From: an uncultured Lachnospiraceae bacterium | Lineage (GTDB): Bacteria > Bacillota > Clostridia > Lachnospirales > Lachnospiraceae | Assembly: GCA_949878435.1 (NCBI GenBank) | Contig: CATLAK010000002.1 | Span: 1-64,000, forward strand | Direction of reading: 5' to 3' | Length of the DNA stretch: 64,000 nucleotides | Part shown: positions 8,934 to 60,002 of the stretch, piece after piece | Position numbering within the stretch: position 1 is the stretch's first letter | How the letters are laid out: each line of letters opens with the position of its first letter | Program-made: the position numbers and the translations under genes | Notes under the pieces: model-generated | Told to the model about the DNA's origin: nothing | The model's input: only the letters and a program-made list of their open reading frames with translations | Database searches by the model: none

Positions 8934-9220
8934 GGGGGATTTGGGGAAGGAAGCAGCAGGGGGAGGGCGGGGGTGTAGATAGGGTTACAAGGCTCTGGCG
9001 AAAAATCGGCAATTTCACTTACAGAATGTGGAGCAGACCAGGGTAAAATCGCCACGGATGGCGATTTTAGGAGCCATGCGGCAGGATGCCGCCGGGCTCC
9101 GACCCGACCGCCTTGAAACACATAAATACATTCTGTTAGTGAAATCCGATTTACAGACGAGCCTTGTAACCCTATCTACACCCCCGCCCTCCCCCTGCTG
9201 CTTCCTTCCCTAAATCCCCC
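8934..9220. repeat. giant hairpin element, copy A (62-base arms, 163-base conserved core)
   Basis: Arm 1 (8934-8995) and arm 2 (9159-9220) are reverse complements at 61 of 62 positions, and the one difference would be a G-U pair in RNA. The core (8996-9158) begins TGGCGAAAAATCGG and ends CCGATTTACAGAC. It contains a second, imperfect inverted pair (9003-9028 with 9129-9152), a hairpin at 9044-9069 with loop ACGGAT, and a nested hairpin at 9070-9100. The core closely matches the reverse complement of the core at 29820-29980, while the arms are unrelated. It lies between the divergent mgtC-like and response-regulator genes. Open frames across it are by-products of the palindrome. Other sequence in 8754-9300 shows nothing clear. 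Confidence 0.9.
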
Positions 9221-9300
9221 GCCTCCCATTTTGTTTACAATTTGATGCTTTTTTTGCAAGACTTTTGTGTTAAGATAAGTGCTAAATGGGGGAGTATGTG

Positions 9301-22253: not shown

Positions 22254-22332
22254 AAGAATTTGTGACGAAGCGTCATAAATTCCATGATGGCAGAGCGAAA
22301 TCTGATATTTCGCTCGCCGCTTCAGCGTAGAA

Positions 22333-22353
22333 CGCTTCGGAATGGAGGAAAAG
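22333..22353 (+). promoter_or_regulatory. repeated translation-start module, copy 1
   Basis: The 20-base sequence CGCTTCGGAATGGAGGAAAA ends directly before the ABC ATPase start codon, with GGAGG as ribosome site. The identical 20 bases recur at 24073, 47929 and 57627. Confidence 0.7.
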
Positions 22354-23262
22354 ATGGAAGAGATAATCAAAGTACAGAATTTGAAAAAAGTGTATAAAAA
22401 GGAGACTGCCGTTTGGAAAGTGGGTTTTTCGCTTACGCCTGGAAGCATTATGGGACTGCTTGGGACGAACGGGGCAGGGAAGACGACCACGTTAAAAATG
22501 ATTACTCATTTATGCACCAAGGATGAAGGAGAAGTCGTAATCGATGGCGTATCGCTGGACGCCGATCCGGGGCTGGCGCTTTCAAAGGTGGGGGCGGCGC
22601 TGGATACGCCCAGCTTTTATCAGGAATTAACTGCAAGAGAAAATATAGAATGCTTTGCGCAGCTTTATAAGAATATTTCCGGCGGGCAGGTCATGGAACT
22701 GCTGGATTATGTGGGGCTCCATACGCAGGCGGAAAAGAAAGTGAGGAATTTTTCCCTCGGTATGAAGCAGAGGCTGGCGCTGGCAAGGGCTATGCTGGGG
22801 GAGCCCAAACTGATTATTTTGGATGAGCCTGCAAACGGATTAGACCCGCAGGGACAGATAGACCTTTATCAGTTGATTTGCAATCTGTCACATAGCAAAA
22901 AAACGACCTTTATCGTTTCTTCCCATCAACTCCATGACATGGAGAAATTCTGCACGGATATTTTAATTTTGGATAAAGGGAAAAGTATTCTGCAGGGAAA
23001 GACGGAAGAAATCTTATCTGAGTCGACAAATGTGGTTGACTGTGTGCTGGAAGAAACAGAAACCTTTTTAAGGCGTTTTCCCAGCTTTGAGGGAATCACC
23101 TTGACCGGACGGAAGGGGAACCAGCTTACAGTCAGGTTAGAGACCATGTGCCTGGATGAATTCATCAAGAAACTGGTCGCGGATAATTTTCATATTTGCT
23201 ATCTTTCCATGCGCAAAAATTCATTGCAGGATCTGTTTTTGAAATTGACAAAGGAGTTATAA
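22354..23262 (+). CDS. ABC exporter ATP-binding protein
   Basis: The 302-residue ATPase starts at the ATG at 22354; the upstream in-frame ATG at 22342 is part of the repeated ribosome-site module. Visible are Walker A (LLGTNGAGKTTTLK), the signature (FSLGMKQRLALARAM), Walker B (LIILDEPANGLDPQG) and the H-loop (IVSSHQLHDME). It belongs to the lantibiotic/bacitracin-type exporter group (LanF/BcrA-like). Two permeases follow. The complex probably expels or resists peptide antibiotics. It sits next to, and may respond to, the ECF sigma system. Confidence 0.92.
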   Translation: MEEIIKVQNLKKVYKKETAVWKVGFSLTPGSIMGLLGTNGAGKTTTLKMITHLCTKDEGEVVIDGVSLDADPGLALSKVGAALDTPSFYQELTARENIECFAQLYKNISGGQVMELLDYVGLHTQAEKKVRNFSLGMKQRLALARAMLGEPKLIILDEPANGLDPQGQIDLYQLICNLSHSKKTTFIVSSHQLHDMEKFCTDILILDKGKSILQGKTEEILSESTNVVDCVLEETETFLRRFPSFEGITLTGRKGNQLTVRLETMCLDEFIKKLVADNFHICYLSMRKNSLQDLFLKLTKEL

Positions 23263-29697: not shown

Positions 29698-29707
29698 GGA
29701 AAGATAA

Positions 29708-30094
29708 CTTACAAAACAATGCCATTAAGTTTAGAGGGAAGCGCGGGCAGGACAGCAGTGACACGGAGCGGAGCGCGGACCAGGTACAGGGGAGCGTATA
29801 TCATATCGTTTCCAGTCTCCTCTCAAAATCGGATTTCACTAACAGAATTGGACGTAGGTGTTTCAAGGCGGACGGGTCGGAGCCAAGCGGCATCCTGCCT
29901 AATGGCTCCTAATCCGGCATCCGTGCCGGATTCCCCTGATACTCACCAATTCTGTAAGTGAAATTGCCGATTTTTCGCCAGAGACTGGAAACGATATGAT
30001 ATACGCTCCCCTGTACCTGATTCGCGCTCCGCTCCGTGTCACATTGCTGTCCTGCCCACGCTTCCCTCTAAACTTAATGACATTGTCTTACAAG
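29708..30094. repeat. giant hairpin element, copy B (112/114-base arms, 161-base conserved core)
   Basis: Arm 1 (29708-29819) and arm 2 (29981-30094) are near-perfect reverse complements, diverging mainly at their outer ends and at a few inner bases. The core (29820-29980), read on the minus strand, begins TGGCGAAAAATCGGCAATTT and carries a stem with loop ACGGAT, then GGAGCC...GGCAGGATGCC...GGCTCC, then CCGCCTTGAAACAC. All of these occur in the same order in copy A. The arms are unrelated to those of copy A. It sits between convergent genes, and the last codons of the minus-strand GNAT gene (30088-30094) lie inside arm 2. The small open frames across it are palindrome by-products. Confidence 0.9.
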
Positions 30095-30558
30095 ATGGTT
30101 TCCATTCCCACTTTCTGCGGTTTCAGACCGCAGGATTGATAGAATTTCATGGCGGTATCGTTTAAACTCCATACATTTAAGGTCACATTATAGCACCCTT
30201 TTTCTCTGGCAAAAGTAAGTACGTGTTCGTAAAGGCTTTTGCCGATATGCTGTCCTCTGATGGTTTCATCAACGCATAAATCGTCAATATACAATGTCTT
30301 GATATCCGTAAGGATATTGTCGTCGATATGCTGCTGAAAAATGCAGAACGCATATCCCAAAACCTTTCCTTGTTCATCCACGGCAGTAAAGATGGGGCGG
30401 CAGTCGTCGTGTATGATTGCGCGGAGCTGATCATCCGTATATTTTTTTGCCCCATATTTAAATAAATCGGGACGCCCTTTATGGTGCACCAGACATACCT
30501 GTTGCAGAAGATTGCCGATTCCGTCCATATCTTGTTCTTTAGCGCGTCTTATTTCCAT
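30088..30558 (-). CDS. GNAT-family N-acetyltransferase
   Basis: The start at 30558 has a GAGGAGC site; a longer in-frame start at 30630 lacks one. The 156-residue product has the GNAT signatures LYIDDLCVDETIRGQHIGKS (acetyl-CoA loop RGQHIG) and NVWSLNDTAMKFYQSCGLKP. The substrate is unknown; similar enzymes acetylate polyamines, antibiotics or proteins. Its stop overlaps the outer end of hairpin element B. A minus-strand terminator-like hairpin at 30664-30685 lies in its leader. Confidence 0.9.
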   Translation of the reverse strand: MEIRRAKEQDMDGIGNLLQQVCLVHHKGRPDLFKYGAKKYTDDQLRAIIHDDCRPIFTAVDEQGKVLGYAFCIFQQHIDDNILTDIKTLYIDDLCVDETIRGQHIGKSLYEHVLTFAREKGCYNVTLNVWSLNDTAMKFYQSCGLKPQKVGMETIL

Positions 30559-47745: not shown

Positions 47746-47928
47746 ATGCGTCCCTCTTTTCCTGAAAATATCATAGGATATGGGGATGCTTTTGTCAATA
47801 TTCAACTGATGGTTGAACCGCCGCGGCAAATTCCCGTGATGCGTTATTGAGGTGTATAGGTAATTATATTAATATAGGAATATCATAATCGTGAAGAAAA
47901 TGCGGGAGGTAAGCTCTTTCGCGTAAAA

Positions 47929-47948
47929 CGCTTCGGAATGGAGGAAAA
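47929..47948 (+). promoter_or_regulatory. repeated translation-start module, copy 3
   Basis: CGCTTCGGAATGGAGGAAAA is identical to the copies at 22333, 24073 and 57627. Here the start codon (TTG at 47958) is a few bases further away. Confidence 0.65.
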
Positions 47949-47957
47949 AAGGAATAT

Positions 47958-56822: not shown

Positions 56823-57611
56823 ATGAGGGCTTATTTAGAATTTGCCATTAAGAAATTTCAGGACAAAATGGCATATAGATTAGATTTCTTTATGGGAATC
56901 GTCAATACCGCGATTACTATTTTGGTTTATCTGTGTATCTATAGAGCGCTGTATGGAAATGCAGCGGATGTGGACGGGATATCCTATTCCATGGTGGCTA
57001 CCAATTTCGTGATTACGCTGGGGCTTTCAAACGCTTTTCATTACAATGAAATGTTTTTACAGGATAAGATTCGGGACGGGAGCATAACCAATGAGTTTTT
57101 AAAGCCGGTCAGCTTTATCCTGCGGCTCCTTTCTGAAAATATTGGGGAAGGTGCGTTTAAAATCATTTTCCACTTTCTTCCAGCGCTGGGAATTACCATC
57201 TTATATACGAAACTGTGCCCGCCCGAGAGCGTGCTGGGACTGTTTGCCATGTTTTTAAGTGTTGTGCTGGGGTATCTGATCCTGTGGCTGATTAGCTTTA
57301 TCATCCAGACGTGGAGCTTCTGGCTGTTCAGTGTGTGGGGAATCATTACCATCAAGAATGTGTTCGTAAGTATTTTGTCGGGATCGCTTCTGCCCTTATG
57401 GTTCATGCCGGAGGCGCTTCGGGGCATCATTTCCGTTACGCCCTTTGAATCCATTTATTTTACGCCGGTGAGGATTTATCTGGGCGAGCTGGAGGGAATG
57501 GAGCTTCTTTGGGCTTTGGCGGTTCAGATTATGTGGATTGCCGTTCTTGGCTTGATTGCAAACGCGTTCTGGAAAAAGGGCGTGAAAAAACTTGTGGTGC
57601 AGGGAGGGTAA
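56823..57611 (+). CDS. ABC-2-like permease, first subunit
   Basis: The 262-residue protein has six predicted membrane helices (for example YLCIYRALYGNAADV, then GLFAMFLSVVLGYLILWLIS). It resembles the COG3694/COG4587 permeases that occur with COG4586 ATPases. It starts three bases after the ATPase stop. Substrate unknown. Confidence 0.85.
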   Translation: MRAYLEFAIKKFQDKMAYRLDFFMGIVNTAITILVYLCIYRALYGNAADVDGISYSMVATNFVITLGLSNAFHYNEMFLQDKIRDGSITNEFLKPVSFILRLLSENIGEGAFKIIFHFLPALGITILYTKLCPPESVLGLFAMFLSVVLGYLILWLISFIIQTWSFWLFSVWGIITIKNVFVSILSGSLLPLWFMPEALRGIISVTPFESIYFTPVRIYLGELEGMELLWALAVQIMWIAVLGLIANAFWKKGVKKLVVQGG

Positions 57612-57626
57612 AAGGATGGCGTTAAA

Positions 57627-57647
57627 CGCTTCGGAATGGAGGAAAAA
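57627..57647 (+). promoter_or_regulatory. repeated translation-start module, copy 4
   Basis: CGCTTCGGAATGGAGGAAAA directly precedes the permease start codon at 57648 and is identical to copies at 22333, 24073 and 47929. Confidence 0.7.
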
Positions 57648-58451
57648 ATGGGTGAAGTGAGGATTGCTTTGCAGTCGCTGAAGATGAGTTTCAGCACAAG
57701 GATGCAGTACAGGGTGGATTCGCTGGTGGCTGCGCTGGCGGTGTTTATCAGGGAATCTGCCAATATCATTGTCATTTATCTGGCACTGCTTAAATTTGAC
57801 AGCATCAACGGTTGGAATGTAAATGAGATGTTGTTTCTGTTCAGCATTTTGTTTCTGACTTATGCATTTGTCGTTTCCCTGTTTGCCGATTTGCGGGATT
57901 TCTCGCGGATGATCAGGGAAGGCAGATTTGACCGGCTGCTTGTAAGACCAAGGGGGCTTTTGTTCCAGCTGATTTTGAACAATGCGGATTTAATTGCATC
58001 GGTGGGACATGGGACTTTAGGGGTGCTTTTGTTTCTCGTATCTGCAGGAAAGGTGGGAATACACTGGAATTTTGCAACGATTCTATATTATGTATGCGCG
58101 ATTATCAGCGGCATCTTAATACAGGGGGGAATGTTCATTATTTTTTCATCCTTGAGCTTTTATTTTGTGGAGACCAACAGCATCCGGGAAATCTTTTATT
58201 GGAATATGCGAAAATTTGCAGGTTATCCGATCAGCATTTACCACAAATTGATACAAGGACTGATCATATATGTGATTCCTTTTGCATTCGTGAATTACTT
58301 TCCGGCGCAATACCTTTTGCGGAAGCCGGATATGGTGAATTATAATGAAATCTACATTTATATCGCGCCGCTTGTGGGGATTATCGTGTACCTTGCAGCA
58401 TATGCATTTTGGCGGGTGAGCGTGAAAAGATATTATAGTACGGGAAACTGA
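57648..58451 (+). CDS. ABC-2-like permease, second subunit
   Basis: Starting at the ATG at 57648 after the repeated ribosome-site module, the 267-residue protein has six predicted helices (ANIIVIYLALLKFDSING, LFVVSLFADLRDF-like segment, IYIYIAPLVGIIVYLAAYAF). It belongs to the same permease group as its neighbour. Its stop converges on the type III toxin gene with 11 bases between. Confidence 0.85.
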   Translation: MGEVRIALQSLKMSFSTRMQYRVDSLVAALAVFIRESANIIVIYLALLKFDSINGWNVNEMLFLFSILFLTYAFVVSLFADLRDFSRMIREGRFDRLLVRPRGLLFQLILNNADLIASVGHGTLGVLLFLVSAGKVGIHWNFATILYYVCAIISGILIQGGMFIIFSSLSFYFVETNSIREIFYWNMRKFAGYPISIYHKLIQGLIIYVIPFAFVNYFPAQYLLRKPDMVNYNEIYIYIAPLVGIIVYLAAYAFWRVSVKRYYSTGN

Positions 58452-59330: not shown

Positions 59331-60002
59331 ATGCAGATTTTATTTTTAGAAGATGAACCCACCATACGGGAGGTTCTGACGGAATATATGAAAATGCAAA
59401 ATTACGATGTAATCTGTGCCGGTGATGGCAAAGAGGCGCTGGAATATTTAAAGACCGGGCATTTTGACATGGCGGTGCTGGATATCATGGTTCCCAAGGT
59501 GAGCGGGCTTGACGTGCTTGCCTATATCAAAGAACATAAGCCGGAGATGGCGACGATCATGCTGACGGCGCTGGGAGATGAAAAGACCCAGGTGCAGGCA
59601 TTTAATCTCTATGCGGATGATTATGTCATCAAGCCGGTGTCTCCCATTATCTTGTTAAAAAGAATGGAGACCATCCTGCGGCGGGTGAAAAGGACCGAGC
59701 AGAGGGAAGAAAAGGGGCTGGTGCTCCATGAAGAGTCTTATCAGGCATTTTATGACGGCGCAGCGCTGGAACTGACCTTGAGCGAATTTCTGCTGTTGCA
59801 GGTGCTCTATAAGGAACCGAAGCGGGCGTTTACCAGAGAGCAGTTGATTCTGCGTATATTCAATGAGGATTATGTGGGGAATGACAGGATCATCGATGCA
59901 CATGTAAAAAATTTGCGGAAGAAACTTCCCGGAAATTATATCAAAACAGTAATCGGAGTCGGTTATCAGTTTCAGAATGGAGGAAAAGATGGGACTGTCT
60001 AA
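59331..60002 (+). CDS. OmpR-family response regulator
   Basis: Starting at the ATG at 59331 (GAGGAGGAAAG site), the 223-residue regulator has the acidic EDE at 7-9, phospho-acceptor D51 (MAVLDIMVPKVSG), TALGDEKT and VIKPVSP, then a winged helix (TREQLILRIFN, RIIDAHVKNLRKKLP). Its last 14 bases overlap the kinase start. It probably regulates the ABC operon 1.6 kb downstream. Confidence 0.93.
   Translation: MQILFLEDEPTIREVLTEYMKMQNYDVICAGDGKEALEYLKTGHFDMAVLDIMVPKVSGLDVLAYIKEHKPEMATIMLTALGDEKTQVQAFNLYADDYVIKPVSPIILLKRMETILRRVKRTEQREEKGLVLHEESYQAFYDGAALELTLSEFLLLQVLYKEPKRAFTREQLILRIFNEDYVGNDRIIDAHVKNLRKKLPGNYIKTVIGVGYQFQNGGKDGTV

Follow-up and report, generated by a model that had tools for sequence, protein, structure and literature searches.

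What kind of element keeps two long arms complementary to each other around a core that recurs between other arms? The question is raised by a hairpin in a 64,000-nt stretch of DNA from an uncultured Lachnospiraceae bacterium (GenBank assembly GCA_949878435.1, contig CATLAK010000002.1, positions 1 to 64,000; hereafter the window). A first-pass annotation had described this hairpin (copy A, or T49 among the copies of the source genome) as a pair of 62-nt arms with one G-U exception enclosing a 163-nt core, and had located the same core, inverted, at 29820-29980 (copy B, or T74). Both observations were confirmed. A repeat search of the window returned 62-nt arms, 98% complementary and spaced 163 nt apart, for copy A, the sole arm mismatch of which is a C versus a T in the outward-read arms, that is, a G-U on the core-sense strand. 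For copy B it returned an inner pair (29758-29819 / 29981-30042) that is 97% complementary and 161 nt apart, within a whole palindrome extending over 29716-30086 (Table 1).

Table 1 Coordinates of the two hairpin elements in the window
Feature	Position	Strand	Remarks
Copy A (T49), left arm	8934..8995	+	98% complementary to 9159-9220 (repeat search)
Copy A, core (RF01731, TwoAYGGAY)	8996..9158	+	82.4 bits, match 8996-9159
Copy A, first AYGGAY hairpin loop, ACGGAT	9054..9059	+	from sequence
Copy A, right arm	9159..9220	+	ends upstream of response-regulator gene starting at 9286
Copy B (T74), target-site duplication, first copy CTTACAAA	29708..29715	.	partner CTTACAAG, one mismatch
Copy B, arm on low-coordinate side, type-1 terminus ACAATGCCATTAAG	29716..29819	-	
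Copy B, core (RF01731)	29820..29980	-	73.7 bits, match 29819-29980
Copy B, arm on high-coordinate side, type-1 terminus (reverse complement ACAATGTCATTAAG)	29981..30086	-	
Copy B, target-site duplication, second copy CTTACAAG	30087..30094	.	

Results

The core is that of RF01731 and is dispersed through the genome

The hairpin had been thought to match no known class of repeat. Its core is in fact that of the Rfam family RF01731 (TwoAYGGAY), whose covariance model matches copies A and B in opposite orientations, both times above its gathering score of 43. The second loop of copy A is AGGAT in GGCAGGATGCC, a shortened variant that is also found in the orthologues of this copy in two other genomes of the genus, G035 and G019. 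The source genome (G000; 3.4 Mb, 51 contigs, 86% complete) holds at least 78 matches, 77 of them above the gathering score; as 150 of 178 candidates were scored, this count may be a lower bound. Of the 299 genomes examined from the family (298 genera), 45 contain RF01731, as do 17 of 60 relatives searched, the source genome being counted in both sets and all 17 belonging to its genus; none of 14 control genomes gave a match. Copies per genome outside the source genome are lower bounds, being drawn from the best 38 or 9 candidates scored in each. Among viral contigs, two carried an exact-pattern match to the stem of A cores and 48 matched a degenerate 16-base pattern of B cores, many of which may be chance matches; in a blastn search, 29700-30100 matched neither phage nor plasmid sequences.

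Fragments of the element lie at the ends of contigs C1, C15, C28, C37, C80, C85 and C142 in the assembly of the close relative G008 (for example, C15:62821-63062 of 63063 and C37:36692-36915 of 36915), which suggests that assemblies break at the palindromes and that true copy numbers are higher than those counted.

Nearly all copies carry complementary arms

When the outward-read flanks of each core were aligned, 75 of the 78 source-genome copies proved to have nearly perfect inverted arms, 32-200 nt long and 89-100% identical to each other, the orientation of 11 copies (T04-T07, T09, T10, T17, T22, T27, T28 and T30) having been reversed after inspection. The anchored arm score was at least 32 in these 75 copies and reached 32 in 3 of 234 comparisons in a swapped-flank control that itself includes some truly related arms. 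Element length ranged from 232 to 559 bp. Arms were likewise present in 52 of 52 testable copies from six other genomes of the genus (G008, G009, G013, G019, G034 and G035), testable meaning a nearly complete core with at least 60 nt of flank, on which account two A copies with too short flanks were dropped. Twenty of 21 copies taken from among the best-scoring ones of 20 genomes, each of another genus, had arms of 24-77 nt, the other-genera scores being 12-44 versus at most 6 for swapped flanks. The copies that lack arms are T77 and T78, which are truncated, T24, which has a full-length core, and, among those from other genera, the copy of G228. Core copies devoid of arms, which the first-pass annotation would have counted against its proposal, accordingly amount to 3 of 78 in the source genome.

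The arms had also been described as unrelated from copy to copy, which is correct in part. Copy A is one of 52 singletons among 74 arms, having no related arm in the genome. The inner ~15 nt of most arms, judged by reading, recur between copies, and, once the inner 20 nt are set aside, blast places 22 of the 74 arms in two related groups of 13 and 9 copies. Group 1 includes T48, T50, T72 and copy B, ending in CAATGTCATTAAG or close to it; group 2 includes T30 and T42, ending in GTAACAGTTCAGCC or close to it.

Insertion and loss of copies

The comparison with G008 covered 1.23 Mb of ~4.2 Mb and located both flanks, at 81-100% identity, for 18 of the 78 source-genome copies, the state of each site being read from the printed sequences. 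The sites of T50 and copy B are cleanly empty in G008, where flanks 92-95% identical to those of the source genome enclose one ~8-bp target repeat and neither arm, which argues that it is the whole palindrome that moves. The copy B site is empty in G013 too, with a 7-bp overlap of the flanks and a repeat differing by one base. Whole-palindrome mobility is thus well supported by two clean cases, and copy B is probably a recent insertion. The same two sites contradict the main idea of the first-pass annotation, namely that insertion inversely duplicates the target. Direct repeats at the ends of the arms with a score of at least 7 were visible in 5 of 75 copies (T30, T42, T50, T72 and T74), an average of 0.95 per set being obtained with swapped flanks. 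Those copies in which target repeats can be seen have arms in common within the two groups.

Elsewhere in G008, T13 is occupied, the T52 site holds another element, nine sites (T04, T07, T12, T20, T26, T42, T49, T61 and T64) hold remnants, and five (T23, T36, T45, T53 and T71) hold no clear trace; a further copy, T69, was also found occupied. At T04 and T07 both arms persist with the core missing, an arrangement that the first-pass annotation had named as adverse to its proposal; we read these sites as deletion remnants. Palindromes devoid of a core also occur in the source genome, at C5:84424-84593 with type-1 ends and at C5:101633-101728, C18:16836-16881 and C38:15891 with type-2 ends. By eye, the three type-2 core-less hairpins lie between direct repeats of 8-9 bp, one exact and two with a mismatch.

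At the position of copy A, between an mgtC-like gene and the response regulator, an element is present in G035 and G019, right-arm sequence alone remains in G008, and the core end and right arm remain in G013. Given orthologues with the same loop in the first two genomes and remnants in the others, copy A is an old resident that was deleted in some relatives, and its arms have probably drifted. Some copies are lost by deletion, most clearly at this site in G013, where the core end and one arm are left. The histidine kinase adjoining copy A has relatives in records that include Lachnospiraceae bacterium IMSAGC_005 and Parablautia intestinalis. In G019 (L167/L086), ~2 kb of extra sequence, absent in G035, separates the mgtC-like gene from the orthologue of copy A.

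The two arms of a copy change in step

Ten sites are occupied in both of the genomes compared, and there the arms of a single genome were 93-99% identical to each other. For eight of these sites the comparison was with G013 or G035; a given arm was then 50-79% identical between genomes, shuffled sequences giving 47-54%, versus 94-99% for the within-genome pairs. The differences could be sorted at five alignable distant sites (T01, T04, T14 and T44 versus G013, and T49 versus G035), where 92 changes were found on both arms, 15 were private to one arm, one was a mismatch common to both genomes and three were of other kinds. In the close relative G008 (T13 and T69), the corresponding counts were 0 both-arm changes, 12 private one-arm changes and 9 shared mismatches. 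These counts draw on seven of the ten shared-site pairs, T42, T70 and T71 being too diverged to align; T52 and T77 had been excluded beforehand. One-arm changes thus come first and both-arm changes dominate at greater distance, and one-arm differences can outlast a species split.

In-step evolution of the arms at shared sites is therefore well supported, and, judging from its products, a DNA-level mechanism such as template switching is the probable cause of their homogenisation. Published passages describe homogenisation of the arms and inversion of the spacer by template switching in yeast inverted repeats (PMC8604942), as well as creation and repair of stems by template switching in RNA genes (PMC8794818).

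The core is conserved and, at some sites, discordant with its arms

All 66 A cores examined, a set from which two truncated cores were left out, retain a T-T mismatch in the basal stem. Since unrestrained copying between arms should erase such a mismatch, its persistence suggests that the core is probably under selection.

At 12 shared sites, the core was the best match of its positional counterpart in four, tied in one, and not the best match in seven, among which two cores lie in the other orientation (T52 and T71) and one belongs to the other subfamily (T26). Arm-to-arm copying alone does not explain this discordance, which could stem from copies exchanging sequence, from elements re-inserting into old palindromes, or from adjacent elements that underwent different deletions. 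T26 has outer arms common to both genomes, with an A-type core in the source genome and a B-type core in G013; in view of this site, the suggestion, made from the letters, that the element favours pre-existing hairpins may still hold. At T52, the outer right arm of the source genome is present in G008 without an inverted partner, and the source genome retains a left-arm remnant of the G008 element, so that T52 likely represents two neighbouring elements with different deletions. Spacer inversion was considered for the reversed cores of T52 and T71 and is not claimed here, since two neighbouring elements better explain T52.

Mismatches in arms and core stems

Selection on RNA pairing should leave G-U mismatches in excess of A-C. 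All arms examined together gave 139 G-U versus 156 A-C (p 0.35), in a test that reads mismatches perhaps too young for selection to have sorted. A first alignment of the A cores of the source genome gave 34 G-U versus 15 A-C (p 0.009), 16 of the G-U coming from one pair; with more genomes, the ratio in core stems was 27:22 for A cores and 6:15 for B cores. The stems of 26 tRNAs in the same DNA, used as a control, gave 25:1, in a register that is imperfect since 21 of 312 pairs were other mismatches.

Ends of the palindromes and candidate mobilisers

The type-1 end pattern occurs at 14 sites in the source genome, 13 at hairpins and one in a coding region. The type-2 pattern occurs at 33 sites, and no transposase was noted at the nine loci viewed by eye. 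Overall, this 86% complete assembly yielded no transposase whose ends match, the type-2 sites having been inspected partly and by eye. Its sole IS66 match (L423, 2960 bases of C25) lies at a locus where palindrome ends are absent, and the copy-rich genomes G009 and G019 gave no IS66 match in a search that did not extend to G034 and G035.

An element of 1.8 kb in G018, a species of the genus, encodes an IS66-family transposase of 478 aa (L425; NF033517 242 bits, PF03050 133 bits) and carries GTAACTATTCAG at both ends, with a flanking repeat that is not clean (5/8). ISDge4, a member of the ISBst12 group, is reported to have two different ends, GTGACTACTCAGCA and GTAACTGCTCAGCA, together with an 8-bp direct repeat (PMC12898284). 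The ends of L425, together with the ends and 8-bp repeat of ISDge4, make an ISBst12-like enzyme the best candidate mobiliser of the type-2 palindromes, in which GTAA-type ends and 8-bp repeats are seen. An IS66 link is accordingly plausible for the type-2 subgroup. IS66 as the mobiliser common to all copies was rejected, because the type-2 ends alone fit and because the presence of IS66 does not follow the number of copies across the genomes searched.

Genomic placement

The elements are intergenic according to a simple ORF heuristic in which ORFs overlapping a hairpin were omitted. An opposing gene lies on the right of 37 copies, and in 25 of these 37 its stop codon falls 1-32 nt beyond the arm; many other copies lie, by eye, directly upstream of promoter-like sequence. 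No motif common to all flanks was apparent by eye. A role as intrinsic terminator was set aside because neither arm is followed by a consistent T-run in the flanks inspected. All nine pairs of source-genome copies with less than 1 kb between hairpins (contigs C2, C4, C11, C14, C15, C17, C32, C38 and C42) are divergent, seven of them being 124-191 bp apart, and their intervening sequences are dissimilar by eye.

A 45-nt direct repeat also occurs four times in the window (22314-22358, 47910-47954, 57608-57652 and 59949-59993), its copies having GAATGGAGGAAAA in common and being 67-73% alike to the reference copy. On the minus strand, 58925-58975 matches the Rfam 6A RNA (RF02925) with 45.2 bits, the gathering score being 41.2.

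Discussion

We consider it probable that the elements described here are palindromic and MITE-like, some with IS66/ISBst12-like ends, and that their arms are homogenised at the DNA level around a conserved core. The family would thus consist of dispersed palindromic mobile elements of ~230-560 bp, with a folded core of ~165 bp and arms of tens to 200 bp. Insertion-sequence transposases working in trans may recognise the ends of the palindromes and catalyse their insertion, a putative ISBst12-group IS66 enzyme acting on type-2 ends (GTAACnnTTCAG) and another putative insertion-sequence transposase on type-1 ends (CAATGTCATTAAG). During replication, the folded core would bring the arms together on single-stranded DNA, and the polymerase could then switch template from arm to arm and copy mutations across, such that the arms would drift in sequence while their complementarity stayed. 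The core itself might be kept as a hairpin nucleator or as a protein-binding site. Against this reading, ends are common only within subgroups, no relative can be recognised for 52 of 74 arms, and target repeats are visible in just 5 of 75 copies.

The family has so far been catalogued as RNA, and core and arms might accordingly form one long transcribed hairpin, a gene or a leader, selected for its pairing, such as a CsrA-sequestering RNA; published passages do propose CsrA binding for TwoAYGGAY (PMC4333381). Rfam models the core as RNA, and its strong conservation, its covarying pairs, the G-U excess of the first alignment, and the many copies lying immediately beyond an opposing gene's stop codon or, by eye, upstream of promoter-like sequence would all agree with such a role. 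We nonetheless regard it as quite unlikely, in view of the tRNA-like G-U excess that neither the arms nor the enlarged set of cores display, of the mixed orientation of copies relative to flanking genes, and of dozens of copies with two cleanly recent insertions, which is unlike a conserved gene. A stronger version of the DNA-level reading, in which TwoAYGGAY would be above all a fold of DNA, with a core that snaps single-stranded DNA into a hairpin and arms that are repeatedly recopied from each other in a palindromic, self-templating mobile element, is put forward tentatively as a possibility that may well prove wrong.

Two further alternatives were considered. The core could be a cassette that enters, or is exchanged within, palindromes of independent and earlier origin, as the core-less palindromes (C5:84424-84593, C5:101633-101728, and T04 and T07 in G008), the different cores between shared outer arms at T26 and the seven discordant cores would allow. 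Core-less palindromes are, however, equally possible as deletion products, T26 in G013 shows by eye neither a bulge nor a target repeat between outer and inner arm, and T50 and T74 are absent from G008 core and arms together, all of which makes a cassette an unlikely explanation. The arms might alternatively arise on insertion by inverted copying of the flanking target, an idea with which the abundance of singleton arms, an arm composition that seems by eye to differ between genera, and the unpartnered outer right arm of T52 in G008 are consistent. This we hold to be very improbable, given empty sites at T50 and T74 that contain neither arm, copies with target repeats that share arms and termini at unrelated sites, and the better reading of T52 as two neighbours with different deletions.

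The DNA-level reading of a mobile palindrome with homogenised arms can be set against several known systems. In Weinberg et al. 2010 (PMC2864571), TwoAYGGAY is listed as a likely RNA that probably does not regulate in cis, and copies A and B as well as 77 of the 78 genome matches reach its gathering score; the published passages mention neither a dispersed distribution nor insertions bearing target repeats, long arms specific to each locus or arms that change in step. More generally, published passages on TwoAYGGAY, supplements aside, describe neither arms nor mobility, titles and abstracts on inverted repeats or MITEs of Lachnospiraceae and on bacterial palindromic MITEs name no such element, and a term search of a MITE review gave no match. 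Thus, the core is that of a known Rfam family, and its life as a mobile palindrome with arms changing in step was not found in published passages.

As in bacterial MITEs, the elements are short, non-coding and dispersed, with terminal inverted repeats (75 of 78 copies having arms) and, in some copies, a target-site duplication, which at T50 and T74 is accompanied by an empty site in a relative. MITEs usually have conserved ends and a free middle; here it is the middle that is conserved and the ends that vary, with the whole element apart from the core made up of inverted repeats. Type-2 ends (GTAACAGTTCAGCC) and 8-bp direct repeats resemble the end GTAACTGCTCAGCA and the repeat given for ISDge4 in published passages (PMC12898284), but the palindromes lack a transposase gene, no IS66 element with such ends was found in the source genome, and type-1 ends differ. 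REP/BIME elements, which go with RAYT transposases, are likewise dispersed intergenic palindromes, REPs being 20-40 bp long according to a published passage (PMC3733652), as opposed to 232-559 bp here with 8-bp target repeats in some copies. Homogenised arms and multi-base changes on both arms are shared with quasipalindrome correction and template switching as published passages describe them (PMC8604942, PMC8794818), although the yeast repeats in the former are short, whereas the arms here measure tens to more than 100 bp around a folded loop of ~165 bp and belong to a dispersed family.

This reading gives a family listed since 2010 as RNA a different and testable nature, and describes a design of mobile element in which the middle is conserved and the ends are free. 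If TwoAYGGAY is primarily a DNA fold, the covariation that led to its cataloguing as RNA would be at least partly a trace left by DNA template switching, a process that the arms would naturally record; covariation alone, it warns, can arise at the DNA level. The hairpins are also a likely cause of assembly breaks in gut Lachnospiraceae. As a genome offers dozens of natural palindromes, comparisons between close relatives may reveal how fast and how far one arm is copied from the other.
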